Shown one piece after another: positions 25,962 to 39,199 of a DNA stretch of 64,000 nucleotides. Every line of letters begins with the position of its first letter. The stretch's first letter is position 1. Origin of the DNA: Candidatus Nanopelagicales bacterium (GTDB taxonomy: Bacteria > Actinomycetota > Actinomycetes > S36-B12). The notes beneath the pieces are model-generated. The model was given only the letters and a program-made list of their open reading frames with translations, was not told the origin of the DNA and did no database searches. The stretch lies in assembly GCA_018609125.1 (NCBI GenBank), contig JABAYF010000028.1, positions 62,001-126,000 of the forward strand. The letters run 5' to 3'. The position numbers and the translations under genes were made by a program.

Positions 25962-27458
25962 ATGCATATCCTCAAGACATCCCGGCCTTCGCTATCGCAG
26001 CGGTTGAGCGGACGCTGGAAGTTGACCTTCGCCGCTGTGGGGGCCGGTGTACTTCTGGCTTCGTGTGCCTCGGGCACCATCCCTGATTCGCGAGATACCA
26101 GTACTGACGTTGCGTTCAACTCCTGTGACAGCATCGCTTGCCAGGGCACGCTTGAGGGTGCGGACTACGACATCTTGCTACCCGACACTTGGAACGGCAC
26201 GCTGCTGTTGTACTCCCACGGTTATCGCGGGGCTGAACCCTTCCCGCCCAACTTTGACCCGGTAGTCACAACACCGGTACCCGTACCCGGCTGGGACTCA
26301 GGAGATAAGAGCCTCGGTGACGCACTGCTGCAAAGCGGTTATGCGATGGCGGGCTCGGCGTATGCATCCAACGGTTGGGCCGTAGAAGACGGTGTAGCCG
26401 CGGCCGAGCAGATTTACGATTTCTTTTCCGCAAATGTCGGTACCCCCAAGCGCGTCATCATCTGGGGTGATTCCCTCGGCGGTCTCATCACCACCACGTT
26501 GGCCGAAAAGGGGCTTGACTGGGTAGATGGAGCTCTACCGCTGTGTGGTGTCATGGCTGGACTTGTGCCCAATATTGGTCTTGCATTGGACGCGGCATAT
26601 GGCGTGCAACAGTTGGTGTATCCGGAAATGCAGATCGTTGATTTCACCAGCTATGAGCAGGCTGTTGCAAACTGGGAAGGTGCGGCGTCTCGCCTTATTC
26701 AAGGTGCCCGCGATCTAGACTTGGAGACGGTTGCCAAGTTACTGACCATCGCGGCGATGACTGACGCACCAGAGAAAACCTTCTCCCAGGACGGCGCGGA
26801 CATCACCAGCCAGGTCACCGGAACCGTGGAGTCATTGTTGACGGCTTTGGCCTATGGCACGGTGGGCCGTTTTGACATCGAACAGCGCTACGGCGGCAAT
26901 GTGTCGGGTAATGAAGGAACCGATTACGCGCTGCGCCTAACTGACGAGGAGCGGGACGTCATTGATGCCGTTGGTGGTGCAGGGGCGGCTGATCGTTTCG
27001 TGGCGCAACTAGATAACGGTCCACGCATCGCTGCCAACCCCGCTGCGCAGGCAGCAGCCCTGGAACGCGGCGGCAATCCCAACGGTGCGATTACGGCGCC
27101 GATGATCACGATGCATACCGCCTTTGATCCGCTGGTCATCGTTGAAAATCAGTCCTTCTACCGCATTCGTTATGACGCAGCGGTGTCCGAAGGGAGAGCA
27201 CAGGGTGACCTCATCCAGCTTTTCACGACACCACCAGCGGCGTACTCCGCTGAAGAAGGCGCACCGTACGGGGCCGGGCACTGCAACTTCACAATGGATT
27301 CGCGCATCGCCCTGATTGGGTTGATGGAAAATTGGATTCAAACCGGCCTCTTCCCCGGCAGCGCAGCTATTGCGGCGGCGATGGGTACGGACAGCGGCTA
27401 TGCACCGCTGTTCGCCCCGGGTCCGTGGCCAGATGCCAATGCGGTGATCACCGAGTAG
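25962..27458 (+). CDS. Secreted lipoprotein of the alpha/beta-hydrolase fold
   Basis: 498 residues. A long basic N-terminus leads to a signal peptide with lipobox LASC (about residues 33-36), so the mature protein is lipid-anchored outside the membrane. The nucleophile elbow is WGDSLGG near residue 170, preceded by LLLYSHGYRG (oxyanion-loop HG) and followed late by the candidate catalytic His in GAGHCNF. Several Asp residues could complete the triad. It may be an esterase or peptidase; no substrate can be assigned. No SD is evident before ATG 25962. It converges with the flippase gene, 24 bases apart. Confidence 0.82.
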   Translation: MHILKTSRPSLSQRLSGRWKLTFAAVGAGVLLASCASGTIPDSRDTSTDVAFNSCDSIACQGTLEGADYDILLPDTWNGTLLLYSHGYRGAEPFPPNFDPVVTTPVPVPGWDSGDKSLGDALLQSGYAMAGSAYASNGWAVEDGVAAAEQIYDFFSANVGTPKRVIIWGDSLGGLITTTLAEKGLDWVDGALPLCGVMAGLVPNIGLALDAAYGVQQLVYPEMQIVDFTSYEQAVANWEGAASRLIQGARDLDLETVAKLLTIAAMTDAPEKTFSQDGADITSQVTGTVESLLTALAYGTVGRFDIEQRYGGNVSGNEGTDYALRLTDEERDVIDAVGGAGAADRFVAQLDNGPRIAANPAAQAAALERGGNPNGAITAPMITMHTAFDPLVIVENQSFYRIRYDAAVSEGRAQGDLIQLFTTPPAAYSAEEGAPYGAGHCNFTMDSRIALIGLMENWIQTGLFPGSAAIAAAMGTDSGYAPLFAPGPWPDANAVITE

Positions 27459-27482: not shown

Positions 27483-28778
27483 CTAGGACGGCAGGTGATC
27501 ATCGTTAGACGTTGCGGGAGTGCCTTGTCGGTACTCCCGCAACGTGTATGCGAGGCCGATTATGCACAGCAGCGCGGCGGCGATGGCGACAGCGGTGGCA
27601 ATTCCGGTGACCGTGCGGGGTAGTACAAGCACGGCGTTGACCCCAAGAGCGATGACTGCGATCCAAATTGCGAGCACTGCGCGTCGGTCATCCACGGCCA
27701 ATCGGGCCAGGAGCAGCACTTGGGCGAGAGCGAACAGTGCCCCAATCAGAGCGAAGAGCCATACGATGGGCACCAGGCTTTCGTACTGGGGTCCACCCAC
27801 GGCCGCTACAACCAATCCCGGGACGGCCGCAGTCGTCAGCACAATGACACTGCCGAGCCCGGCGACTGTGGCCAAGGTGATGATCAGCGTTCGGGACCGG
27901 CGAGCATCGGCCAGGCGCGGGAAAGCGATGATGCCCACGAACTGGGGGAGCCAGAAGGCGATCTTGATCACGATAGAGCCCACGCCGTAGTCGCCGGCCT
28001 GATCAGCCGGCAGCAGAGCACGAGCGAGGACGACGTCAATGTTGGTGAGGAGAAATAGCGCGAAGAGCGCATGGGTAGCGTGGGCTACCGGGTGCATCAA
28101 CGGACGAATCGGCCGGTGATCGGATGCGTGCAGCGGGGCCACAGCAATACGGCCGATGAAGGCGCCGCACACGCTGCCGACCATGATGCCAAACAGGGTT
28201 GCTGCGGCTGATGAACCGATGAGCGCTCCGACCACCCCGCCGATACCGCGTCCGAGGCCGACGCTGGCGTAGATGAGGGCGAGGCGGGCAAAGGATTCTC
28301 TGCCCTGGGCGACGCCCAATTGCGCGCCGATCCAGGTGAGGGGCGCCAGCGTGAGGGCTACCCACAACAGCGGCCACCAATTTGATAGATCGAGGAGCCA
28401 GGCCATGGCCGGTGTGATGGCGAGGGCGGCGAGGCAGATGGCCGCAGCGCTGGCGAGGCCTAGTCGCAAGCCTTGGGAGCCGATCGCTGCCTTCGTGGAG
28501 TCGCTGGCCACGATGAGCCTGGCGATGACTGCCTGCAGGCCCAGGGCAACCACATTGCCGATCAAGATAAGCCCCAGCATTGCAGCGACGATGCCGAACT
28601 CGTCGGGGCCGAGGGCGCGCGCAGCAACAACGTTCACCACGTAGGCCGCGATCTGGGCGATTCCCAAAGCCACAGCGACCAGCCCGGTCCCGTGCAGCAG
28701 GGACGAACGCATCAGGCGAGCAGCTCGACTGGCTAAGTCGGTGCCCGATTGCTCATCGTCTGCGCCCGTGGTTGTCAT
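27483..28778 (-). CDS. Polysaccharide/lipid flippase of the MATE-like (MOP) superfamily
   Basis: 431 residues with roughly 12 membrane segments, starting with a helix after LMRSSLLHGTGLVAVAL; the AARALGPDEFGIVAA box after the first helix is typical of Wzx/oligosaccharide flippases. The ATG at 28778 (MTTTGADDEQ) is chosen because upstream codons overlap the divergent gene that starts at 28801. Placed at the edge of an envelope glycan cluster, it probably moves a lipid-linked sugar or lipid across the membrane; MurJ identity is unlikely because murJ usually sits near the origin-proximal mviN locus and is larger. The 3' end contains a strong hairpin. Confidence 0.8.
   Translation of the reverse strand: MTTTGADDEQSGTDLASRAARLMRSSLLHGTGLVAVALGIAQIAAYVVNVVAARALGPDEFGIVAAMLGLILIGNVVALGLQAVIARLIVASDSTKAAIGSQGLRLGLASAAAICLAALAITPAMAWLLDLSNWWPLLWVALTLAPLTWIGAQLGVAQGRESFARLALIYASVGLGRGIGGVVGALIGSSAAATLFGIMVGSVCGAFIGRIAVAPLHASDHRPIRPLMHPVAHATHALFALFLLTNIDVVLARALLPADQAGDYGVGSIVIKIAFWLPQFVGIIAFPRLADARRSRTLIITLATVAGLGSVIVLTTAAVPGLVVAAVGGPQYESLVPIVWLFALIGALFALAQVLLLARLAVDDRRAVLAIWIAVIALGVNAVLVLPRTVTGIATAVAIAAALLCIIGLAYTLREYRQGTPATSNDDHLPS
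27509..27545. terminator. Long hairpin inside the flippase 3' coding end
   Basis: ACGTTGCGGGAGTGCC (27509-27524) pairs with GGTACTCCCGCAACGT (27530-27545) around the loop TTGTC: 16 pairs with a single G-U. It lies 50 bases after the convergent hydrolase stop and within the last ~20 codons of the flippase. No U-run follows on either strand, so it may be a factor-assisted terminator or mRNA 3'-end stabiliser. Confidence 0.6.
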
Positions 28779-28800
28779 GGGCCTGCCACGATAGTGGGCT

Positions 28801-30582
28801 ATGGCCACGCAAACAGCGAGAACAGGCGTGGGCCGCCGATTGCGGATGTGGTCGACCGGTCCCGGCCTGGTTGTGGGTTGGGCTGCCCTGTTGACGTTGG
28901 TTATCAGTTGGCCCATGCTGCGCAGCGGATATGTGCTCAGCTACGACATGGTGGCCGTCCCACGCCAATCGCTGCTGCCAGAGTTCTTTGGGTTCGGCGC
29001 GGGTCTGCCACGGGCCGTCCCTCAAGACGCCGTCTTCGCGTTGGTCACACAGGTGGTGGCCGGTGAATGGCTGCAAAAGCTCATGCTGCTGGCAATCTTG
29101 CTGCTGGCCGGTATCGGTGTAGGTCGCCTGCTCAGCGGGTTCGGTCGTCCGTGGCAGTTGATGGGCGTCACGCTGGCTATCTGGAACCCTTTCGTGGCCG
29201 AGCGCCTCGTCATCGGCCACTGGTCCCTCCTCCTGGCTTACTCGGTGCTGCCGTGGATGCTGGCGGCCCTGGTAAAAATCCGTTCTACGGATCGGGGGTA
29301 CATCGGGCTTATTTGGCTCGCCGCGACTGGCTCGCTCGTTCCCAGCGCAGGCATTCTCGTAACGCTATTGGTTACCGTGCCACTTCTGTGGCCGGCCGCC
29401 CACACGCCGTTTCTGCGCCGCATGCTGACAGTCCTGTGCATCTGGCTGCTCAATCTGCCCTGGGTGCTGCCAGCATTGATGCATCCAGACTCTGGTACGT
29501 CTGCCGCTGAGTCAGTAGCGGTTTTCTCGCTTCGGTCCCAGGGCCCGTGGGGCGAATTGGTGACCGCCCTGAGCCTCGGCGGAATCTGGAATAGCGAGGT
29601 GACCCTGGCGTCGCGCTCGTGGTGGACCGCTCCTGTGATCGGCCTTGTGCTGTGTGCGTTGGCTGCGATAGGGGCTCAGCGCTGGCTGCGCCGGGCTCAC
29701 GATGTCTCCATGGCATGGTTGTGGATCCTCAGTGGTATCGGCCTGTGCATCGCTTTGGCACCGGTGTGGTTCGGTTCAGCATGGACACAGGTCGTGGGCA
29801 GCGTTCCAGGCGCGGGCATTCTGCGGGATTCAAGCAAGTGGTTGATCTATCTGGCGATGGCGGTGGCCATCTGCGCACCTGTTGGAGTGCGATACCTAGT
29901 ACGGCGGTTAGAAGACCCCGCCACCCGTCGAGCGTTCGCAGTCCTGGTGATTATCGTTCCGATTGCGGCCATGCCGGACTTCGTCTGGGGGGCAACGGGT
30001 CGTCTTAGCGCCGTTCACTATCCAGCTCAGTGGACGCAGTTGCGAGAGGTCATGGCGGTGCAGTCGGCGCCGGGAGACGTCCTGGTTTTGCCCTGGTCGG
30101 CTTTTCGGCAGTATGAATTTAACGATCGGCGAACGGTTTTAGACCCGGCTCCGCGTTGGCTGCCGCGACCCTCGTTGGCGGTCAGTGATCTGGCGGTAGC
30201 AACAGATGATGGTGTGATCGTGCTACCCGGAGATAATCGTCGCGCCGGTGAAATTAGCGACTGGATCGCAACGGAGAGACCACTGAGCGGGCTCCCGCCA
30301 TCGCTGGGCATCGGCTGGGTCCTCGTCGAATCGGGTCAGCGGCCCGAGCCATCACCGGCATCACTGGTTGGTCTGCAGCAGACGTGGGCCGAGGGTGACC
30401 TGAGGCTTTATCGGGTGGATAGCGTGGCAACCACGATGACCCTGACGGCAGGTGAGCGGGTTGTCGTCGCCCTGGATGCCGTACTTTTTGGGGCGCTGTG
30501 GGTGGCCCTGGCCGCTGCAGGTGTCTTGCGTTGGCGGCGAAGCCACAGCAAGGGCCGTGATCCGGTGGTATCAAGCGGGTAG
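28801..30582 (+). CDS. Polytopic membrane protein, GT-C-like (Rv0226c-like by position)
   Basis: 593 residues with about 11-12 membrane segments in the first 420 residues and a soluble, extracytoplasmic region near 420-560 before a final membrane helix. The first external loop SGYVLSYDMVAVPRQ holds Asp in the place where GT-C glycosyltransferases keep their catalytic acid, and the general layout resembles the N-terminal part of AftD. Mycobacterium keeps a membrane protein of similar size (Rv0226c) beside the same methyltransferase/glycosyltransferase/acyltransferase neighbours. I infer a role in envelope glycan assembly; no specific reaction is supported. Divergent from the flippase, 22 bases apart. 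Confidence 0.65.
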   Translation: MATQTARTGVGRRLRMWSTGPGLVVGWAALLTLVISWPMLRSGYVLSYDMVAVPRQSLLPEFFGFGAGLPRAVPQDAVFALVTQVVAGEWLQKLMLLAILLLAGIGVGRLLSGFGRPWQLMGVTLAIWNPFVAERLVIGHWSLLLAYSVLPWMLAALVKIRSTDRGYIGLIWLAATGSLVPSAGILVTLLVTVPLLWPAAHTPFLRRMLTVLCIWLLNLPWVLPALMHPDSGTSAAESVAVFSLRSQGPWGELVTALSLGGIWNSEVTLASRSWWTAPVIGLVLCALAAIGAQRWLRRAHDVSMAWLWILSGIGLCIALAPVWFGSAWTQVVGSVPGAGILRDSSKWLIYLAMAVAICAPVGVRYLVRRLEDPATRRAFAVLVIIVPIAAMPDFVWGATGRLSAVHYPAQWTQLREVMAVQSAPGDVLVLPWSAFRQYEFNDRRTVLDPAPRWLPRPSLAVSDLAVATDDGVIVLPGDNRRAGEISDWIATERPLSGLPPSLGIGWVLVESGQRPEPSPASLVGLQQTWAEGDLRLYRVDSVATTMTLTAGERVVVALDAVLFGALWVALAAAGVLRWRRSHSKGRDPVVSSG

Positions 30583-30620
30583 TGTGGCCAGCGGCAAGCC
30601 CGGCGAAAAAATGCCAGAAT

Positions 30621-30653
30621 TTGACGCGCATGGCCGAAAAGGTTTGCTACTGT
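30621..30653 (+). promoter_or_regulatory. Possible promoter of the DUF2613 gene
   Basis: TTGACG (30621-30626) and an extended -10-like TGCTACTGT with TACTGT at 30648-30653. The 21-base spacer is too long for a standard promoter, so the -10 may act without the -35. Confidence 0.3.
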
Positions 30654-30703
30654 CAGCGACGGCAGACGGTTAATCGACCGGGCGGCCCACGATGGAGGTC
30701 ACC

Positions 30704-30844
30704 ATGAATTTGATCCTTGGTCCGATTATTGCTGCGGTTGTGGGGGCGATTGTCGCTGGTGGCGCCGCTTTTGGCATCGTTTCTTCGCAGACCGCCGTGC
30801 CATCCCCGGTTGATGCACCCTTCGTGGTCTACGGCACCAACTAG
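30704..30844 (+). CDS. 46-residue DUF2613-like membrane/secreted peptide
   Basis: Starts ATG at 30704 with GGAGG five bases upstream and ends TAG at 30844. The peptide begins MNLILGPIIAAVVGAIV, one Ala/Gly/Val-rich hydrophobic helix of about 28 residues, followed by a short hydrophilic tail ending VVYGTN. Size, composition and proximity to aftD fit the DUF2613 family, whose Mycobacterium member (Rv0236A) lies next to aftD. Function unknown; it may be a small partner of the membrane glycosyltransferases. Confidence 0.75.
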   Translation: MNLILGPIIAAVVGAIVAGGAAFGIVSSQTAVPSPVDAPFVVYGTN

Positions 30845-30862
30845 TTCTGGCCTTTCCCCCCG

Positions 30863-32005
30863 TTATTGCCCACGCAGGCGCAGGGCAGGCGTCTTGGCGT
30901 TGTGTGCTGCTGGCCCGATAGCCAATAAGATCTCTTCGAATTGATCCACGCTGGCATCCCAGGAGTAATTCCCAGCATGTAGGCGGGCAGCTGCGCCAAG
31001 TTGCTGCCTGCTGGTCGCGTCGGTGATGAGCCTGCCGATCGCCGCGATGAAATCGTCCCGGCCACCATCCACAAGCACGCCGGTTTCTCCATCGCGCACC
31101 GATTCGCAGACCCCACCGGCTGCCCGGTAAGCCACCGTGGGTACCCCACGGGCGGCGGCCTCCATGACCACCAGACCCCAGCCTTCTTTGAGTGAGGGGA
31201 GGGCCAAAATCCAGGCGCGCGCAAGTTCGGCCTGCTTGGCCTGCTCATCGATATGCCCGGTAAAGGTAATCCGGTCAGCCACCCCCATGTTCTGGGCATG
31301 GCGCTGCAACTGCGGCATCCACCATCCATCACCCACCACCGAAAGCGTGAGGTCGGGAAAGGCACCGCGAAGGGCTGCGACAGCATCAATGGCGTGTTCA
31401 ACCCTTTTGTGTGGGACCAGACGTCCAAGGACGACCAGATGTGGATGATCAGCCGGTTTCTGGATGGACGTCTCGTGGGTGCGTGTCCCGTTGGGCACCA
31501 CGCTGATGCGCTCGGGGCCGATGCCGAGCAGCGCTAGTTCGGACCTTGTCGCCTCGGACACGGTGATGTACCGACAGCGGCGGTACACCCGTGGTGCCAG
31601 TTTGGACTCCACCCACCAACCAAAGCGAGCTCGGATGGGGTCGTAAACGACCGGCCACTGCTCCCGATGGACATGGTGAACCAGGACGACCACGGGAACC
31701 TTGGTAGCCCACGGAGCAAGGAAGGGGATCCCGTTGTGCGTGTCTATCACCACGTCGGCGTGAGCAAAGTCTTTTTTCCGCAACGTGCGCCGAGCACGCT
31801 GGTAAACGCTGAGTTTGCCACCCTGACGAATAAAGGTGACCCCATCAATCGTTTCACGATCCGGTGCCTGATCGTGTGCCGCGCAGATGATGGTGACCTC
31901 ATGCCCCCGCTCAGCGAGTCCGCGGGCGATGGTTTCCAGGTAGACCTCAGATCCACCACCTTCTGGATTGGCCATGTCCCGCCAGTTCAGCCACACGATG
32001 CGCAT
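30863..32005 (-). CDS. GT4-family glycosyltransferase (Rv0225-like)
   Basis: Retaining GT-B glycosyltransferase, 380 residues. N-terminal half begins RIVWLNWRDMANPEGGGSEV (in two parts RIVWLNWRDM and NPEGGGSEVY), with the Gly-rich acceptor loop; the C-terminal half has GRLVPHKRVEHAI and the donor-binding EGWGLVVMEAAARGVP (Glu-x7-Glu). ATG 32005 is chosen because it matches the family start and a TAGGTT box lies 7 bases upstream. Divergent from the methyltransferase, as are Rv0224c and Rv0225 in Mycobacterium. Acts in the cytoplasm on an unknown lipid or sugar acceptor. Confidence 0.85.
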   Translation of the reverse strand: MRIVWLNWRDMANPEGGGSEVYLETIARGLAERGHEVTIICAAHDQAPDRETIDGVTFIRQGGKLSVYQRARRTLRKKDFAHADVVIDTHNGIPFLAPWATKVPVVVLVHHVHREQWPVVYDPIRARFGWWVESKLAPRVYRRCRYITVSEATRSELALLGIGPERISVVPNGTRTHETSIQKPADHPHLVVLGRLVPHKRVEHAIDAVAALRGAFPDLTLSVVGDGWWMPQLQRHAQNMGVADRITFTGHIDEQAKQAELARAWILALPSLKEGWGLVVMEAAARGVPTVAYRAAGGVCESVRDGETGVLVDGGRDDFIAAIGRLITDATSRQQLGAAARLHAGNYSWDASVDQFEEILLAIGPAAHNAKTPALRLRGQ

Positions 32006-32018
32006 GGGGCAAAACCTA
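32006..32018 (-). promoter_or_regulatory. Putative -10 box, leaderless glycosyltransferase mRNA
   Basis: Minus strand TAGGTT (32018-32013), seven bases, then ATG at 32005; no SD. Confidence 0.4.
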
Positions 32019-32066
32019 CTGGGCGGACTCATTGGGTTCAGCCAAATATTGATTGTCTTCCTGGGG

Positions 32067-32078
32067 TACCGTCAGCCG
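32067..32078 (+). promoter_or_regulatory. Putative -10 box, leaderless methyltransferase mRNA
   Basis: TACCGT (32067-32072), six bases, then GTG at 32079. No SD is present. Supports this start over upstream in-frame codons that overlap the divergent gene. Confidence 0.4.
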
Positions 32079-32855
32079 GTGGCGTCGGTTACGGGTCGAT
32101 CGGGTGGGCACGAATGGCGTCCAGACGTGTCCCGGGCAGCAGGGCTGTGGCGCGCATTCGGTCAGGAGCAGTCACATCCTGAAGTTTTCTACCGAGCATT
32201 GGCGCAAGATTCCGCCGCCCAGGTCCACTCCTATCACCCGCTCAATGGCGCGGTCATGGTCGATGTGGGCGGTGGCCCGGGCTTCTTCGAAGACGCCTTC
32301 ACCGAACGTGGAGCGACCTACATCGCCGTTGACGCCGATGCCGGCGAAATGCGATTGCACGGTCGAACTCCCGGCGGGCGTACCGTGCAAGCCAGCGGAA
32401 CCGAACTGCCCTTCCCCGCGGCAACATTCGACGTCACGTACTCATCAAATGTTGCCGAGCATGTGGCTGATCCGTGGCGCATGGCCGATGAAATGGTGCG
32501 TGTCACCAAACCGGGCGGCACCGTGGTGTTGTCCTACACACTGTGGTGGGGTCCCTGGGGCGGGCACGAAACAGCTCCATGGCACTACCTGGGCGGGCAT
32601 CGAGCTGCGCGCCGGTACCGGCGCGTGCGTGGTCACGATCCCAAAAATTATTTCGGCACCAGTCTTTTCCCGGTAACTGCGGCGGCGGGAATGCGGTGGG
32701 CCCGGCAACACCCGGATGTGGATCTCATCGCCGCCGTGCCTCGCTATCTGCCCGATTGGAGTCGCTGGATTCTGCGCGTGCCGCTGATCGGTGAAGTCTT
32801 CAGTTGGAACCTGCTCCTGGTCCTGCGTCGGCGTAATCCCAGGTCGCTGGAGTGA
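32079..32855 (+). CDS. SAM-dependent methyltransferase (Rv0224c/MtrP-like)
   Basis: Class I methyltransferase, 258 residues from GTG 32079. Motif I is VDVGGGPGFFEDAF; the acidic end of strand 2 is AVDADAGEM; the post-I region has GTELPFPAATFD and SSNVAEHVADPW, typical of the UbiE/Methyltransf_11 group. Similar proteins stand beside a GT4 gene in Mycobacterium (Rv0224c) and Corynebacterium, where the homologue MtrP is reported to support trehalose mycolate transport. Overlaps the GTG of aftD by four bases, so the two are probably cotranslated. The methylated substrate is unknown. Confidence 0.83.
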   Translation: MASVTGRSGGHEWRPDVSRAAGLWRAFGQEQSHPEVFYRALAQDSAAQVHSYHPLNGAVMVDVGGGPGFFEDAFTERGATYIAVDADAGEMRLHGRTPGGRTVQASGTELPFPAATFDVTYSSNVAEHVADPWRMADEMVRVTKPGGTVVLSYTLWWGPWGGHETAPWHYLGGHRAARRYRRVRGHDPKNYFGTSLFPVTAAAGMRWARQHPDVDLIAAVPRYLPDWSRWILRVPLIGEVFSWNLLLVLRRRNPRSLE

Positions 32856-35800
32856 GCGAAACAAACACGACGCGAGTTGTTTCAACGCCGGCCCCGGCCT
32901 CGCCGGAGCCATCTGGTGGTGCGAACGAGCAATTCCTGTCGCGGTGGCGATATGTGGCCGTAGCCCTGGGCCTGATCGCCCTGGCGTTCACCCAAAACCC
33001 CGGCCGAATCGCAGCGGATACGAAACTGGATCTTTTGGTTGATCCCGGCGGCCTGATGTCTCGGTCCTTCACGCTGTGGGAACCTTTGGGATTTTTCGGC
33101 CAGTTACAAAATCAGGGCTATGGCTACCTCTTCCCGATGGGTCCCTTTTTTTGGTTCTTTGATCTGCTTGGCATGCCCGGGTGGGTTGCTCAGCGCATGT
33201 GGTGGTCGGTGCTGCTCGTGGTCGCTTTTGCTGGCGCAGCCCGGGTCATTCAAGCGCTAGGCATTCCAACGTTCACGCCGGTCGCCATCGGTGCGTTGAG
33301 CTACGCGCTAGCCCCACGGATGATGACCGAACTCACGGTTCTTTCCGCCGAGGTGGTGCCCTTCGCCTTGGCGCCCTGGGTGCTGCTGCCACTCATCTAT
33401 CTCACCCGCGGTGGCTCGATTCGCCGCGCGGCTACCTTCAGCGGTCTGGCTGTGTTCGCTGTTGGGGGAGTCAACGCTGTTGCCACGATCGCGGTACTTC
33501 CCCTAGCGGCATGGTGGATTGTGTATCGCTTCACCGGGCGAGCCAGGTTGGTGCTGGGAGGTTGGTGGGTCGGTGCGGTGGCACTCGCCACCGCCTGGTG
33601 GGTAATTCCGCTACTGCTACTCGGTCGATATTCGCCGCCATTTCTGGACTGGATCGAGTCGGCATCGGTGACAACCGCGATCACCGCACCTGACACTGCA
33701 CTGCGCGGAACATCGGCGTGGGTGGCCTATGTGTCCGAACTTGGCGGTCCGGTGTGGCCGGCTGGGTGGGTGATGGTGACCACCCCACTGCTGATCGTGA
33801 TTTCTGGCATCACGGTTGTGGTCGGGGTCGTAGGGGTCGCCCTGCACCGCAATCCCTATCGGGTGTATTTACTCTCAGCGGTATTCGCCGGGCTTGTTCT
33901 GGTCACCATGGGACATCTTGGGCCACTGCAGGGTTTCGGATCAGACACGCTTCATTCCCTCCTGGACGCAGCGTTATCGCCGCTACGAAATACGCATAAA
34001 TTTGATCTGATTCTGCGACTTCCGCTGGCCATCGGGGTCGCGTACGCGATGCATCGGCTCATGCTGGCACGCGTTGGCTATCCCCGGTTAGCCAAGGTGG
34101 CCATCGTCGCTGTGTTGGTGCTGGTGGTCTCCGGTGCCACGGCCCTTGTCTCGGGCACCTCAACCCTCAACCGGTCCTTTGTCGAGATCCCCACCTATTG
34201 GCAGCAGGCCGCTACCTGGCTAGAGGATCGATCCGACTCGGGCCGGGCACTGGTGGTCCCCGGTGCATCGTTCGCTGTCTTTTCGTGGGGGCGCACCAAC
34301 GATGAACCACTGCAGGCGCTGGGTGGATCGCCATGGGTGGTGCGAGATGCCGTGCCATTGGCGAACGCCGGGGCAATTCGATATCTCGATGCGGTTAACG
34401 CCCAGATCGACAGTGGTCGTGATATTGCAGGCCTGAGCACAGCGTTAGCGCGTGCCGGCATCGAATGGGTGGTGCTGCGCAATGACATTGACGTACGTCA
34501 AACAGGCGTGCCCAGAACCGCTCGGGTCAGGCAGACACTCACCAGTTCACCGGGGCTTGCCCTGGTCACCAGCTTTGGGCCAATCGCCACCCTGCCCAAT
34601 AGTGACACCCTGGTCGTTGATCGCAGTTTGAGTAACGAGGTACCACCTATTGAAGTGTGGCGGGTATTACCTTCCCCAGCCCAGCCTGATCCGCGATTCG
34701 CGCTCCGGGCTGCCGAAGAGGTGTACGTCATGAGTGGGTCCAGTGAGGCACTCGCGGACCTCGCCGATACCGAACAACTCAAAGACCGGGTCATTGTTTT
34801 TGCTGGCGATGAGCAACCGCTTGTCGATCTGAACACACCGCCCACACTCCGTTTTGGGGTGACCGATTCCTTTCAGCGGTCGGTCGTCAACTTTGGCTTA
34901 TCCCGCGATAACCGCAGTGAAGTGCTCAGCGCCGACACGCCACTTCCTGTGAATCGTCCGGTCAACGACTATCTTCCGGTTGACCCTGCGGGTCGACAAT
35001 CGGTCGCCGAATACATCAACGGCACCGTCCAGGCCTCATCCTCTGCGTCCATGGGTAACAACGCCACCGTGTTGCATCGCGAAAACCAAGCTTGGTCAGC
35101 GATTGACGGCGATGACCAGACCTGGTGGGCGTCGGCAATCGTTGACTTTTCCAAGGACGAGGCACTGGGACAGTGGTGGCAGGCACAGTGGGCGGAGCCG
35201 GTATTTGTCGATGGAGTTGATATTCGGTTGCCGCCGAACGCTGCCGAGGAGGGTCAGTACACGATCACTGTCGGTACGGATGCGGGGGAGGCGGTATCGA
35301 CGATTCCCGCTGGTGCGGGGTGGACCCGACTGGCAACGGTCGCTGGGTTATCTAAGAGCCTGCGCATCACCCTGGATGGGGTTACCGGCACGGCCGTGCC
35401 TGCGCAGTTTGGACTTGCCGGTGTAGATCTACCCGTACCGATTGATCGTTTCGTGCGCACATCAGGAGTAGTAGATGGTGGTCCGATGGTCTTTCGGGCT
35501 GAGCAGGGCTCCCGGAGCGGATGTTTATCTGTGCGGGGACTGGTCACATGTGCGCCCGATTTGGCTCGATTTGGCGCGGAGCGTTCAGGTATTCGGCGAC
35601 TGGTTGATGTCGCTGCCCCCGGTGAATACCGCATTGCCATGACCTTGCGACCGCGCATCGGTGACGGCCTCAATCGACTCCTCGATGGAGCGGATATTGG
35701 TGACATCACGGCGCAGGCCTCGAGCACTCTCACCCTCGACCCAGGCGTTGCCGCCCGATCACTCGTTGACGGATCACAGGAAACGGCCTGGATCGCGGGT

Positions 35801-37072
35801 GCTGATGACCGACAGCCAGAGGTCACCTTGACCTGGGACGAGCCGATCAGGGTGAGTGGTATTCGCCTCGGCCTCAGCCCCCAACTTCCCGCATCTCGTC
35901 CGCTTTCAGTGACGGCCATCGTTAATGGCCTGCCCACAACGGTGGTGGCGAATGCAGATGGTGTCGTGCGTTTCCCGGCACAGGAGACAAACTCAATTAC
36001 ATTGGTATTTGTCAACAATCTCGCCCGTCGCACCTTGGACCCCCTGACCGCAAACGTGGAAATCCTTCCGGTTGGTGTCTCCGAGATTGGGCTCATCGGG
36101 CGTGATTCACTGGAGCGCGGACCCACCCCCGGCGACGTGATCAGCGTCGACTGCGCCAACGGTCCCACCGTAGAGATTGATGGCGTGGTCAAAGCGCGCA
36201 GTGAGGTGTCTGTCACCTACGGGCAGGTGCTTGCCGAAGCCCGGGTGCCAGCCAGTCTCTGCGGTGGGCGAACCGTGCTGCTCGAACGCGGCGAACACGC
36301 CATTGTCGTGGACTCCACCGCTGAATTCGTCGTGGACTCTGTCGTCTTGACCCCGGTGACTGACATCGGCATCCCGGCGGCGACGGGTGCGGCTGCGGTG
36401 ACGTCGTGGGAACCGGCGAGCAGGAGCCTGGTGGTCAATGCGCAGGCGGAGCCCCGAGTGCTGGAGTTGAATGAAAATGCCAACCCGGGCTGGGTCGCGA
36501 CAATCAATGAAGAGCCACTCACGGCGCTGCGCGTCGATGGATGGCGCCAAGCCTGGTGGATTCCAGCCGGTGTCGGCGGTGTCGTCTCTGTTGAGTTCGC
36601 CCCCGACACCACGTTCAGGGCTGGCTTAATCGCTGGTGCCATGGCTGTATTGGCGCTGGTGGCATTGTGCGCTATCCCGATACGGCGACGATGTGCACCC
36701 GTGGTCGTGCCCGTGCGTCCGTGGGAAGACTGGCTGCTGGCGGGTGTTGGAGTTGTGGCAGCCGGTCTTCTCGCCGGATTCGCCGGAGTGGTTGTATCAG
36801 GGGTAACGATGGCCATCGTGTGGAGCTATCGCCTGCGCCGCAGCCGAATCGGCTTGATCGTTGCAGTGCTGGGCGCCGCTACTGTTCTCGCCAGTATGTG
36901 GGCTTGGCCGCAGCGAGCAAGTGCACCGGCGTGGGTTGAGATAACGCTGACACTCCTTACGGTGCTGGGCTTGGCAGCCGCTGCCGCCCCGTGGCGTTGC
37001 CGCGCCGATGAGTCCACCGCTGAACCGGACGCTCCAGCACAAACCACGACGCAGTTGCCGCCAGCACGCTGA
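32852..37072 (+). CDS. aftD: AftD-like alpha-(1->3)-arabinofuranosyltransferase
   Basis: Very large membrane GT-C enzyme, 1406 residues. The first ~420 residues hold 11 or more membrane segments; the first external loop has the Asp pair of ADTKLDL (D56, D60) and YLFPMGPFFWF, the DUF3367 hallmark. A long extracytoplasmic part follows, with two discoidin/F5-8-type-C-like sugar-binding domains recognisable by AIDGDDQTWWAS (near 750) and LVDGSQETAWIA (near 970), then C-terminal membrane helices (about 1255-1380). In mycobacteria AftD adds arabinofuranose to arabinogalactan and lipoarabinomannan from decaprenyl-phosphoarabinose. The 3' end overlaps the convergent acyltransferase by 116 bases. Confidence 0.88.
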   Translation: MSETNTTRVVSTPAPASPEPSGGANEQFLSRWRYVAVALGLIALAFTQNPGRIAADTKLDLLVDPGGLMSRSFTLWEPLGFFGQLQNQGYGYLFPMGPFFWFFDLLGMPGWVAQRMWWSVLLVVAFAGAARVIQALGIPTFTPVAIGALSYALAPRMMTELTVLSAEVVPFALAPWVLLPLIYLTRGGSIRRAATFSGLAVFAVGGVNAVATIAVLPLAAWWIVYRFTGRARLVLGGWWVGAVALATAWWVIPLLLLGRYSPPFLDWIESASVTTAITAPDTALRGTSAWVAYVSELGGPVWPAGWVMVTTPLLIVISGITVVVGVVGVALHRNPYRVYLLSAVFAGLVLVTMGHLGPLQGFGSDTLHSLLDAALSPLRNTHKFDLILRLPLAIGVAYAMHRLMLARVGYPRLAKVAIVAVLVLVVSGATALVSGTSTLNRSFVEIPTYWQQAATWLEDRSDSGRALVVPGASFAVFSWGRTNDEPLQALGGSPWVVRDAVPLANAGAIRYLDAVNAQIDSGRDIAGLSTALARAGIEWVVLRNDIDVRQTGVPRTARVRQTLTSSPGLALVTSFGPIATLPNSDTLVVDRSLSNEVPPIEVWRVLPSPAQPDPRFALRAAEEVYVMSGSSEALADLADTEQLKDRVIVFAGDEQPLVDLNTPPTLRFGVTDSFQRSVVNFGLSRDNRSEVLSADTPLPVNRPVNDYLPVDPAGRQSVAEYINGTVQASSSASMGNNATVLHRENQAWSAIDGDDQTWWASAIVDFSKDEALGQWWQAQWAEPVFVDGVDIRLPPNAAEEGQYTITVGTDAGEAVSTIPAGAGWTRLATVAGLSKSLRITLDGVTGTAVPAQFGLAGVDLPVPIDRFVRTSGVVDGGPMVFRAEQGSRSGCLSVRGLVTCAPDLARFGAERSGIRRLVDVAAPGEYRIAMTLRPRIGDGLNRLLDGADIGDITAQASSTLTLDPGVAARSLVDGSQETAWIAGADDRQPEVTLTWDEPIRVSGIRLGLSPQLPASRPLSVTAIVNGLPTTVVANADGVVRFPAQETNSITLVFVNNLARRTLDPLTANVEILPVGVSEIGLIGRDSLERGPTPGDVISVDCANGPTVEIDGVVKARSEVSVTYGQVLAEARVPASLCGGRTVLLERGEHAIVVDSTAEFVVDSVVLTPVTDIGIPAATGAAAVTSWEPASRSLVVNAQAEPRVLELNENANPGWVATINEEPLTALRVDGWRQAWWIPAGVGGVVSVEFAPDTTFRAGLIAGAMAVLALVALCAIPIRRRCAPVVVPVRPWEDWLLAGVGVVAAGLLAGFAGVVVSGVTMAIVWSYRLRRSRIGLIVAVLGAATVLASMWAWPQRASAPAWVEITLTLLTVLGLAAAAAPWRCRADESTAEPDAPAQTTTQLPPAR

Positions 37073-38126
37073 CCAACACGGTCGCGATGAGCACCGGGAT
37101 GAAGCCGCCGCCAAAAATCGACAGGTTGAACACGTCAACAATGAGTCGAAGCAACACTAGGTGCCACAGGAAGATGCCGTAGGAAATGGTGCCCAGGTAC
37201 ACCACGACCGGGTGCTGCAGGAATCTTGACCAGGTGGAACCTGCATCCCATCGGCCGAAGAAGCCGGGCAGGAGAAAGAAAATGGCGATGATGGCGAAAG
37301 CGGCGTGCTTGACCGCGATCTGCGTGCCCGTTCCATCGACCAGATCGATAGGGCCACCCAGTGGGGTCGCGGCGATCACGTAAATGGCGGCCGCAGCTCC
37401 TAGGCAGATGGGAGTTTCCCGCGCCAGATCAACGACTCGGTTCATCCACCGTGGGGGATCGGGACGTTCCAATCGCGTCGAAACCACGGCCGCTGTCATG
37501 CCAACGGCGAACCAATCCAGATGGCTGATGATCCAAAGCCCGCTCAGCCCTGTGCCGCCGTCGAACAGGGTGCTGCGCCCGATGATGAAAACCCAGGTGA
37601 GGGTTGCCAGACCCGCAATAACCCAGAGTTGGGATTTGCTACTTCGGCTGGGATCACCGCGATGTCGACGCCCCGCCAGCCAGGCAAGCAGCGGCAGCAG
37701 GACATAAAAGGAGACCTCGGTAGCCAAACTCCAGGTCTGAGTGAGGCCCTCGAGAGTAAATCCGGGAATGTAAATGTGCAGCAGGCCCAGGTGCACGACC
37801 CAAAAGTCCCAGGGCACCGGCTGGATCTCTGGCAGTACCAGGATCGTGAACACAACCATGGCCCAGTACGCGGGCAGAATTCGGCCGGATCGACGCAGCG
37901 CATACGTACCCAGCCGAGGTGGGGATGAGGCAGCCATGGCACTACGCGCCCAGGGGCGGTAGAGCAAGAAGCCCGACAGAACGAAAAACAGGGTCACGCC
38001 AAAATCCATGCGTCCTAGCAGCGGACCTACGACGGGGGAGAAGCTTTCACCGGTCGTGAATGCGACGTGCGTGGTGAGCACAAGGAGGGCGGCGATGGCC
38101 CGATAGCCATCGAGGAGCGGAAACAC
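36957..38126 (-). CDS. Acyltransferase 3 family membrane protein (Rv0228/TmaT-like)
   Basis: Integral O-acyltransferase, 389 residues, about ten membrane segments. N-terminal LDGYRAIAALLVLTTH carries the catalytic His; FFVLSGFLLYRPW is the second family box and WFVLERPVQRW closes the domain. GTG 38126 gives the exact family start; no good SD. Homologues in Corynebacterineae (TmaT) acetylate trehalose monomycolate ahead of MmpL export, and are divergent from a DUF3068 gene as here. The acceptor in this organism is unknown. Its last 116 bases are antisense to the end of aftD. Confidence 0.87.
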   Translation of the reverse strand: MFPLLDGYRAIAALLVLTTHVAFTTGESFSPVVGPLLGRMDFGVTLFFVLSGFLLYRPWARSAMAASSPPRLGTYALRRSGRILPAYWAMVVFTILVLPEIQPVPWDFWVVHLGLLHIYIPGFTLEGLTQTWSLATEVSFYVLLPLLAWLAGRRHRGDPSRSSKSQLWVIAGLATLTWVFIIGRSTLFDGGTGLSGLWIISHLDWFAVGMTAAVVSTRLERPDPPRWMNRVVDLARETPICLGAAAAIYVIAATPLGGPIDLVDGTGTQIAVKHAAFAIIAIFFLLPGFFGRWDAGSTWSRFLQHPVVVYLGTISYGIFLWHLVLLRLIVDVFNLSIFGGGFIPVLIATVLVSVLAATASWFVLERPVQRWTHRRGNATGRQRLPSPAP

Positions 38127-38227
38127 TTACCCATGATGTCGCGAAGAAGCCTCACATGGCGGTGTTTTCCGCTACGGTTCCCACACGATGCCAGCATTTG
38201 ACTGGTAGCAATCACTTGGGAGGCGTG

Positions 38228-39199
38228 ATGAAGCGCGGTTTTGGCATTGTCTTGGTGGGAGTCGGCGTTTTTGCCCTCGTCCTCGCCGGACTACTTCGAT
38301 TCACCGTGGTTCCAGCGGTGGCACAAGCCCCACTGTCACCGGGTGAGGACACCGGCGGCGTCACTCAGACTGATCAAAGTGGCATCGCGGCCAAGCTCTT
38401 TGATCCAGCTACCCAGACCGAGCGCACCGATGTGCCGCTCACGGCCACGCGCTTCACCCGCGGCGACGTTCCGGCGAGCCAGACCACGGAGGCATTGAAC
38501 GCAAACCTGGCCATCTATGACTCCTTCCTTCGCGTGGAGGACAATGCCGGGGTCGTCGTGTCTGCAACCACCCTCCGCGTTGCCTTTGATCGAGTCTCCT
38601 CTGAACTGAGCAACTGCTGCGGCGCTAACTACGACGGGCTCGAAGTGGACTTCACCGGGGTCAATCCGTTGAAGTTCCCCGTGTTCACCAAGGCGCAGGA
38701 CTACAACTTCTTCGATACCGTGCTACAAGAGGCTCTCCCGATCACCTATATCGGTACCGAAGAGGTTGAGGGCTTGAGCGTGTATCGCTTCGAGCAGCAG
38801 TTTGAGGCCAAACAGATCGGATTCCTGGCCGTACCGGGTCCGCTCGTGGGTTCCCCGGCCGCGACCTATCAGGCGGCACGCTGGTACGCAAACTCTCGTG
38901 TCTTGTACGTGGAACCGACCACCGGATCGATCGTGAAGGGGGAGGAGCGTCAGGTACAGACCCTCCGCGGCCCGGACAACACAGACCAGGTCACCGTTAT
39001 TGACGCGGTACTCGGGACGACCGCCTCGGAAGTCACCGAGTCGGTAGACCTCGCGAAATCTCAGTCCTCCCTCATCAATCTCCTCAACACCACGGTCCCG
39101 ATCGCGGCCCTCATTCTCGGCCTGATCCTGCTCGCGGTCGGCATCGCCCTGTTGGCGACGTCGCGAAATGCAAGCCCGCGTCGAGTCACCACCGAGTGA
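38228..39199 (+). CDS. DUF3068 (PorA-family) two-anchor envelope protein (Rv0227c-like)
   Basis: 323 residues: N-terminal membrane anchor (about 4-30), a large extracytoplasmic domain of about 260 residues, and a C-terminal helix (TVPIAALILGLILLAVGIALL, seen as TVPIAALILGLILLA) before a short basic tail. This is the layout of DUF3068, found widely in actinobacteria. ATG 38228 follows GGGAGG. Mycobacterium places it (Rv0227c) next to the acyltransferase Rv0228, also divergent. Role in lipid or glycan transport is suggested by neighbours only. Confidence 0.85.
   Translation: MKRGFGIVLVGVGVFALVLAGLLRFTVVPAVAQAPLSPGEDTGGVTQTDQSGIAAKLFDPATQTERTDVPLTATRFTRGDVPASQTTEALNANLAIYDSFLRVEDNAGVVVSATTLRVAFDRVSSELSNCCGANYDGLEVDFTGVNPLKFPVFTKAQDYNFFDTVLQEALPITYIGTEEVEGLSVYRFEQQFEAKQIGFLAVPGPLVGSPAATYQAARWYANSRVLYVEPTTGSIVKGEERQVQTLRGPDNTDQVTVIDAVLGTTASEVTESVDLAKSQSSLINLLNTTVPIAALILGLILLAVGIALLATSRNASPRRVTTE

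Follow-up and report, generated by a model that had tools for sequence, protein, structure and literature searches.

Why does a bacterium without detectable mycolate genes carry an envelope-gene block whose relatives in Mycobacterium and Corynebacterium are tied to trehalose-mycolate traffic? The block lies between polA and rpsA in the window, that is, the whole 64,000-nucleotide stretch of Candidatus Nanopelagicales DNA analysed here. A preliminary description had reported that its families occur together, and this observation is confirmed: eight genes lie at positions 27483-39199 (Table 1), and Pfam and NCBIfam profiles matched the listed families far above chance, with the exception of the DUF2613-like peptide, which stays below threshold. 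Upstream of the block are polA and then a lipoprotein gene, and downstream an S1-type rpsA-like gene and uvrB. The longest open reading frame of the flippase reaches 28916, and the likely start at 28778 yields a protein of 431 amino acids, a length similar to that of its homologues. The likely starts of the methyltransferase, a GTG at 32079, and of PgfA, at 38228, also differ from those of the longest frames. All block genes are open, with intact motifs.

Table 1 Features of the envelope-gene block and of the lipoprotein gene preceding it (window coordinates).
Feature	Coordinates	Strand	Basis
Secreted lipoprotein with GDSLGG nucleophile elbow (alpha/beta-hydrolase-like)	25962..27458	+	LLASC lipobox-like motif and GDSLGG, from sequence
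Wzx/MATE-type polysaccharide flippase	27483..28778	-	PF01943, 48 bits, 2.1e-12
MmpA orthologue, AftD-like GT-C membrane protein	28801..30582	+	NF053599, 446 bits (cut-off 210), 2e-133
DUF2613-like membrane peptide, 50 aa	30692..30844	+	PF11021, 17.6 bits, under the 22.1 cut-off
GT4 cytosolic glycosyltransferase, Rv0225 position	30863..32032	-	PF00534, 125 bits, 2.5e-36
MtrP-type SAM methyltransferase	32079..32855	+	PF08241, 67 bits, 2.6e-18
AftD, full length: GT-C domain and carbohydrate-binding modules	32852..37072	+	PF11847, 703 bits, 3.6e-211; CBM_AftD, 1.9e-9
TmaT-type acyltransferase-3 (AT3)	36957..38126	-	PF01757, 94 bits, 1.6e-26
PgfA/LmcA (DUF3068, 'PorA'), membrane-anchored lipid-binding protein	38228..39199	+	PF11271, 227 bits

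By profiles, best-hit tests and gene order, we assign the block to the mtrP-mmpA-pgfA-tmaT-aftD locus of Mycobacterium and Corynebacterium. Orthologues of MtrP, MmpA, PgfA and TmaT are all four present, as judged from profile cut-offs, identity and synteny. The methyltransferase aligns over its full length with its syntenic orthologues at 48-65% identity (48% for the Mycobacterium one), and the GT4 protein is 42-72% identical to the syntenic GT4 of block-bearing Actinomycetes loci. The best hit of the window AT3 was the syntenic AT3 in 8/8 genomes, with 162-171 bits against 130-136 bits for the next match in the three Mycobacterium-type genomes, and its R-X10-H and RxxR motifs (R9-X10-H20 and R79-R82) are invariant in 45 sequences. 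AftD matched the solved mycobacterial AftD (6wbx/6w98) with an E-value of about 6e-158 over ~1350 residues, and its loop motif DTKxDL shows hardly any variation among 57 sequences. The DUF3068 protein is called PgfA by NF053601 (227 bits, cut-off 160, 4.7e-67) and matched the LmcA crystal structure 7n3v (E 1.1e-11). Finally, MtrP/GT4 and AT3/PgfA form divergent pairs with the orientation known from Mycobacterium, both in the window and in loci L065 and L066. That the block is homologous to Rv0224c-Rv0228 and shares its divergent pairs, as had been proposed, is thus borne out by profiles, MtrP identity, AT3 best hits and orientation.

The whole genome, an incomplete 2.15-Mb draft that is 97.3% complete, was searched with family profiles. 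In this assembly, Pks13 was not found, the only matches being partial and FabF/FabD-like (83 and 43 bits, cut-off 2100). Neither Emb arabinosyltransferases nor a DprE1/ALO domain were found in the assembly, and the decaprenyl-phosphate phosphoribosyltransferase model gave at best 24.6 bits there, with nothing over its cut-off; the C. glutamicum control was positive in each of these searches. MmpL3 was not found either, as the two MmpLs of the assembly score 233 and 218 bits against a cut-off of 1400, and both are generic. The claim that no mycolate genes are in view therefore holds assembly-wide for the families searched. The product in the window organism is most probably not a mycolate. The genome encodes a PIP synthase (NF045883, 240 bits), a PIM acyltransferase (NF005919, 383 bits) and a GT4 in the PimA position, the latter without a specific model; with these anchor genes present, phosphatidylinositol-mannoside anchors are plausible. 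Besides heme O synthase and MenA, a third UbiA-type prenyltransferase is found at G000:C28:2815-3522 (L178:2752-3570). It was considered as an arabinose-donor enzyme and rejected, having no match to the phosphoribosyltransferase model.

The distribution of the block was surveyed by a contig scan with the methyltransferase alignment, which yielded 80 named loci, each considered with a neighbourhood of ~20 kb. All seven families are present in 25/80 loci, and six in 34/80. The nearest named relatives of the window block are those of other Candidatus Nanopelagicales metagenome-assembled genomes (MAGs). The full block adjoins polA in Nocardioides, Aeromicrobium and Kribbella; Micromonospora carries the full block as well, Jiangella carries most of it beside an rpsA-like gene, and the block is found rearranged in Amycolatopsis, Lentzea, Nonomuraea, Streptosporangium and Blastococcus. 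To our knowledge, Nocardioides and the other named carrier genera are mycolate-free by established chemotaxonomy. Gene-order comparison across Actinomycetia, which the preliminary description had suggested, therefore finds the block widespread in cultured genera, a breadth that this description had missed. Mycolic acids have been described as exclusive to Corynebacteriales (PMC6194230). In the literature searched, mostly outside subscription journals, we found no report of the whole block in mycolate-free genera, and priority is not certain. Two observations on single records may be added. In the Nocardioides loci L099 and L158, two aftD-AT3 units flank the methyltransferase, which suggests a tandem duplication of part of the block, and L117, from a record titled Streptomyces sp. 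SID13031, has the layout and scores of Kribbella and may be misnamed.

The joining of two Mycobacterium loci into one block had been regarded as special to this organism, but it is not. In Gordonia, aftD-AT3-pgfA-flippase-mmpA-GT4-mtrP form one block, and C. glutamicum cg3161-cg3168 are contiguous in the published gene list (PMC7775120), while aftD lies about 15-18 kb from mmpA in Mycobacterium-type genomes. Since the block is contiguous in Gordonia and C. glutamicum too, the merged state is older and the Mycobacterium split derived. The block-gene trees follow taxonomy, with the mycolate taxa in one split (support 1.0) and the window grouped with its own order, apart from them (support 1.0). 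Together with the presence of the block in mycolate-free genera, these trees uphold the earlier proposal that the locus originated before its use for mycolates. Within the window's order the block is patchy: 14/60 genomes have PgfA, and the family with the smallest genomes has none among those sampled, which suggests loss.

The published account of MmpA reports no catalytic domain, only partial AftD similarity and a distribution restricted to coryne- and mycobacteria (PMC8698533). The AF2 model of the window MmpA is confident (pLDDT 90.1), and its best PDB fold is AftD (6w98, E 5.7e-9, TM 0.52), followed by the PglB/AglB/STT3 oligosaccharyltransferases and ArnT, all of them GT-C proteins. No PDB sequence was matched by MmpA in phmmer or profile searches; matches came only from the fold search and from profile-profile comparison, the latter pairing MmpA with AftD at 99.1% over 475 columns and aligning MmpA Asp49 with AftD Asp60. 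Among 32 MmpAs, Asp49 is near-invariant, and the only one that clearly departs from this is an N-terminally truncated call; GT-C enzymes carry an essential Asp in the corresponding first loop (PMC12041299). Fold, profile and Asp49 suggest that MmpA is probably an active extracytoplasmic glycosyltransferase rather than a transport helper only. The preliminary description had labelled it a 'GT-C-like membrane protein' and had not recognised it as MmpA. On the 'trehalose lipid delivery' model of NCBIfam, MmpA relatives in genera without mycolates reach 393-541 bits, indicating that this name is spreading beyond its evidence.

How, then, would such a module work? Gene content, family membership, catalytic motifs, the predicted MmpA fold, conservation of the block and the absences of mycolate and arabinose-donor genes were computed directly; from these we infer the order of steps, the substrates and the product. 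We propose, with a probability of roughly 0.6, that the block represents an ancestral system of actinobacteria for the assembly, modification and transport of an envelope glycolipid or lipoglycan, and that this system was later taken up for mycolate export. The cytosolic GT4 would add a sugar to a lipid-linked acceptor, MtrP would methylate the intermediate or license AT3, and the flippase would turn the intermediate across the membrane. Outside, the GT-C proteins MmpA and AftD would extend it with sugars from polyprenyl-phosphate donors, AT3 would O-acylate the product, and PgfA/LmcA would bind its lipid and carry it outward. In mycobacteria and corynebacteria, the same parts would have been reused for the export of acetylated trehalose mycolates and for lipoglycan maturation. 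As to the product, deletion of LmcA in C. glutamicum abolishes mature LM/LAM (PMC8972800), and in mycobacteria lipid trafficking is coordinated by PgfA (PMC9678360); an acylated lipoglycan is thus a reasonable candidate for the ancestral product. Conversely, LM/LAM are unaffected in the C. glutamicum tmaT, mtrP and mmpA mutants (PMC8698533), so that the lipoglycan reading is weaker for these three genes. Among single products, a lipomannan-like lipoglycan on a PIM anchor is the likeliest, although we put it forward only as a possibility, well short of even odds. A little short of even odds, and thus still tentative, is the more general idea that MmpA and AftD are a pair of extracytoplasmic GT-C glycosyltransferases which, in most carriers, use a polyprenyl-phosphate donor to add a sugar other than arabinose to a methylated, acylated glycolipid, with mycobacterial mycolate export and arabinan branching as late take-overs.

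The conservation of the AftD active site counts against this explanation, for it could mean that the same arabinose donor is used and made by another route. We considered an arabinan system, in which a glycolipid receives D-arabinofuranose through AftD and MmpA and the donor comes from an unrecognised route. The window AftD is full length and shares DTKxDL with arabinan makers such as Amycolatopsis, and the distant AftD-like proteins of other classes mostly co-occur with the phosphoribosyltransferase. The donor question was addressed in an even sample of 347 genomes of the phylum, which are related, so that the counts are not independent events. MmpA is above its cut-off in 25/347 genomes, 16 of which belong to one family, presumably Mycobacteriaceae, the only family with strong Emb hits. 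The phosphoribosyltransferase is present in 16/16 of these, and over its cut-off in 0/9 of the MmpA-positive genomes outside the mycolate family, five of which (G000, G083, G134, G199 and G261, G199 being a single contig) carry a strong AftD (494-780 bits). With the phosphoribosyltransferase missing, decaprenyl-phospho-arabinose from the known route is an unlikely donor for the AftD of these organisms. An arabinan product is further opposed by the window genome, where DprE1 domain and Emb were not found and the phosphoribosyltransferase was below cut-off, and we regard it as unlikely. Arabinogalactan genes have been assigned only to lineages past the node that gave rise to Corynebacteriales, Pseudonocardiales and Actinopolysporales (PMC6194230). 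The preliminary description had proposed an ancestral system for an arabinan or an acylated glycolipid; the ancestral part stands, the arabinan is disfavoured and was dropped because Emb, DprE1 and the phosphoribosyltransferase are missing, and the interpretation as a whole is partly supported. In other classes, a more distant AftD-like group (about 230-335 bits) occurs mostly with the phosphoribosyltransferase and not with Emb, and may represent a second, Emb-free arabinan-like system. One genome outside the class encodes an AftD-domain frame of 2719 codons (G343:C1:855082-857031) and two further AftD-like genes.

A capsule or exopolysaccharide cluster, in which the flippase exports polyprenyl-linked repeats, the GT-C enzymes decorate them and PgfA helps to display the polymer, appears quite unlikely. 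Polysaccharide loci typically contain a Wzx-type flippase together with GT4, GT-C enzymes and AT3, and patchiness within the order is expected of a dispensable surface polymer. However, no polymerase, chain-length or initiating sugar-phosphate transferase gene was seen in the block, its gene content is strongly conserved across orders, unlike that of variable capsule loci, and PgfA relatives act on lipids (PMC9678360, PMC8972800). Recent horizontal acquisition of the block from a mycolate maker, perhaps in non-functional form, could also account for the patchy presence, but it is very improbable and was dropped: order-mates as well as Nocardioides and Aeromicrobium keep the polA-to-rpsA location, the trees place the window with its own order and the mycolate taxa in a separate split, and every gene is open with its motifs intact. 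Finally, it is barely credible that the organism makes and exports mycolates with genes merely missing from the draft, since, even though it has each of the four locus proteins linked to trehalose-mycolate traffic, a 97% complete assembly is without detectable Pks13, Emb, DprE1 and phosphoribosyltransferase, its MmpLs (218-233 bits) fall far below the 1400-bit MmpL3 cut-off, the single-contig genome G199 also has the block without Emb or phosphoribosyltransferase, and named carriers such as Nocardioides are, as far as we know, mycolate-free.

Three further features of the block and its surroundings may be noted. The lipoprotein gene at 25962-27458 occupies the same place in several Nanopelagicales relatives and in one Frankiales MAG, and its product is a possible esterase or deacylase that could partner AT3. 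It had no match in Pfam or in a PDB profile search, and its AF2 model was poor (pLDDT 41 with five sequences), so we make no fold claim. The DUF2613-like peptide is real though sub-threshold, supported by its conserved counterparts in order-mates; a relative's copy scores 21.4 bits on PF11021, also below 22.1. Convergent aftD and AT3 share their 3'-terminal stretches (36957-37072), and an overlap of 36-166 bp recurs in 32/36 convergent pairs, from Nanopelagicales to Nonomuraea and Gordonia, an unusually persistent antisense arrangement.

The new results are that MmpA is predicted to adopt a GT-C fold and that the donor synthase is missing, at its cut-off, from all nine sampled MmpA-positive genomes outside the mycolate family; the breadth of the block among genera without mycolates adds to these. 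The transport machinery arguably preceded mycolates and probably first served another surface glycolipid. MmpA gains a testable enzymatic role, and the reach of the database name 'trehalose lipid delivery protein' into organisms without trehalose mycolates is a warning. In M. tuberculosis, Rv0226c, Rv0227c and Rv0228 are essential (PMC8698533, PMC9678360, PMC9558356). In cultured mycolate-free carriers, where loss of a gene is not necessarily lethal, the function of each protein, including MtrP and MmpA, could be studied with readouts free of confounding mycolate effects.

Compared with known systems, the window block has the same families and divergent pairs as C. glutamicum cg3161-cg3168/NCgl2759-2764 (aftD, tmaT, lmcA, mmpA, GT, mtrP; PMC7775120) and as Mycobacterium Rv0224c-Rv0228 plus aftD. 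Unlike these, it stands in a genome without detectable mycolate, Emb or arabinose-donor genes, includes a flippase and the DUF2613-like peptide, is flanked by an order-specific lipoprotein hydrolase and lies between polA and rpsA. The peptide adjoins mmpA and GT4, whereas in Mycobacterium it is found beside aftD. The window AftD is homologous over its full length to the protein of 6w98 and 6wbx, including the carbohydrate-binding modules and the DTKxDL loop, but the known arabinose-donor genes are missing from its genome. The window PgfA shares DUF3068 along its full length with LmcA/PgfA (MSMEG_0317; 7n3v), while trehalose monomycolate is not expected as its ligand. Lastly, the window relative of MmpA (NCgl2761/Rv0226c), the 'trehalose lipid delivery protein' of NCBIfam, scores more than twice the model's cut-off (446 against 210 bits), and, in contrast to the published description (PMC8698533), MmpA occurs across the class, with a predicted GT-C fold and a conserved loop Asp.
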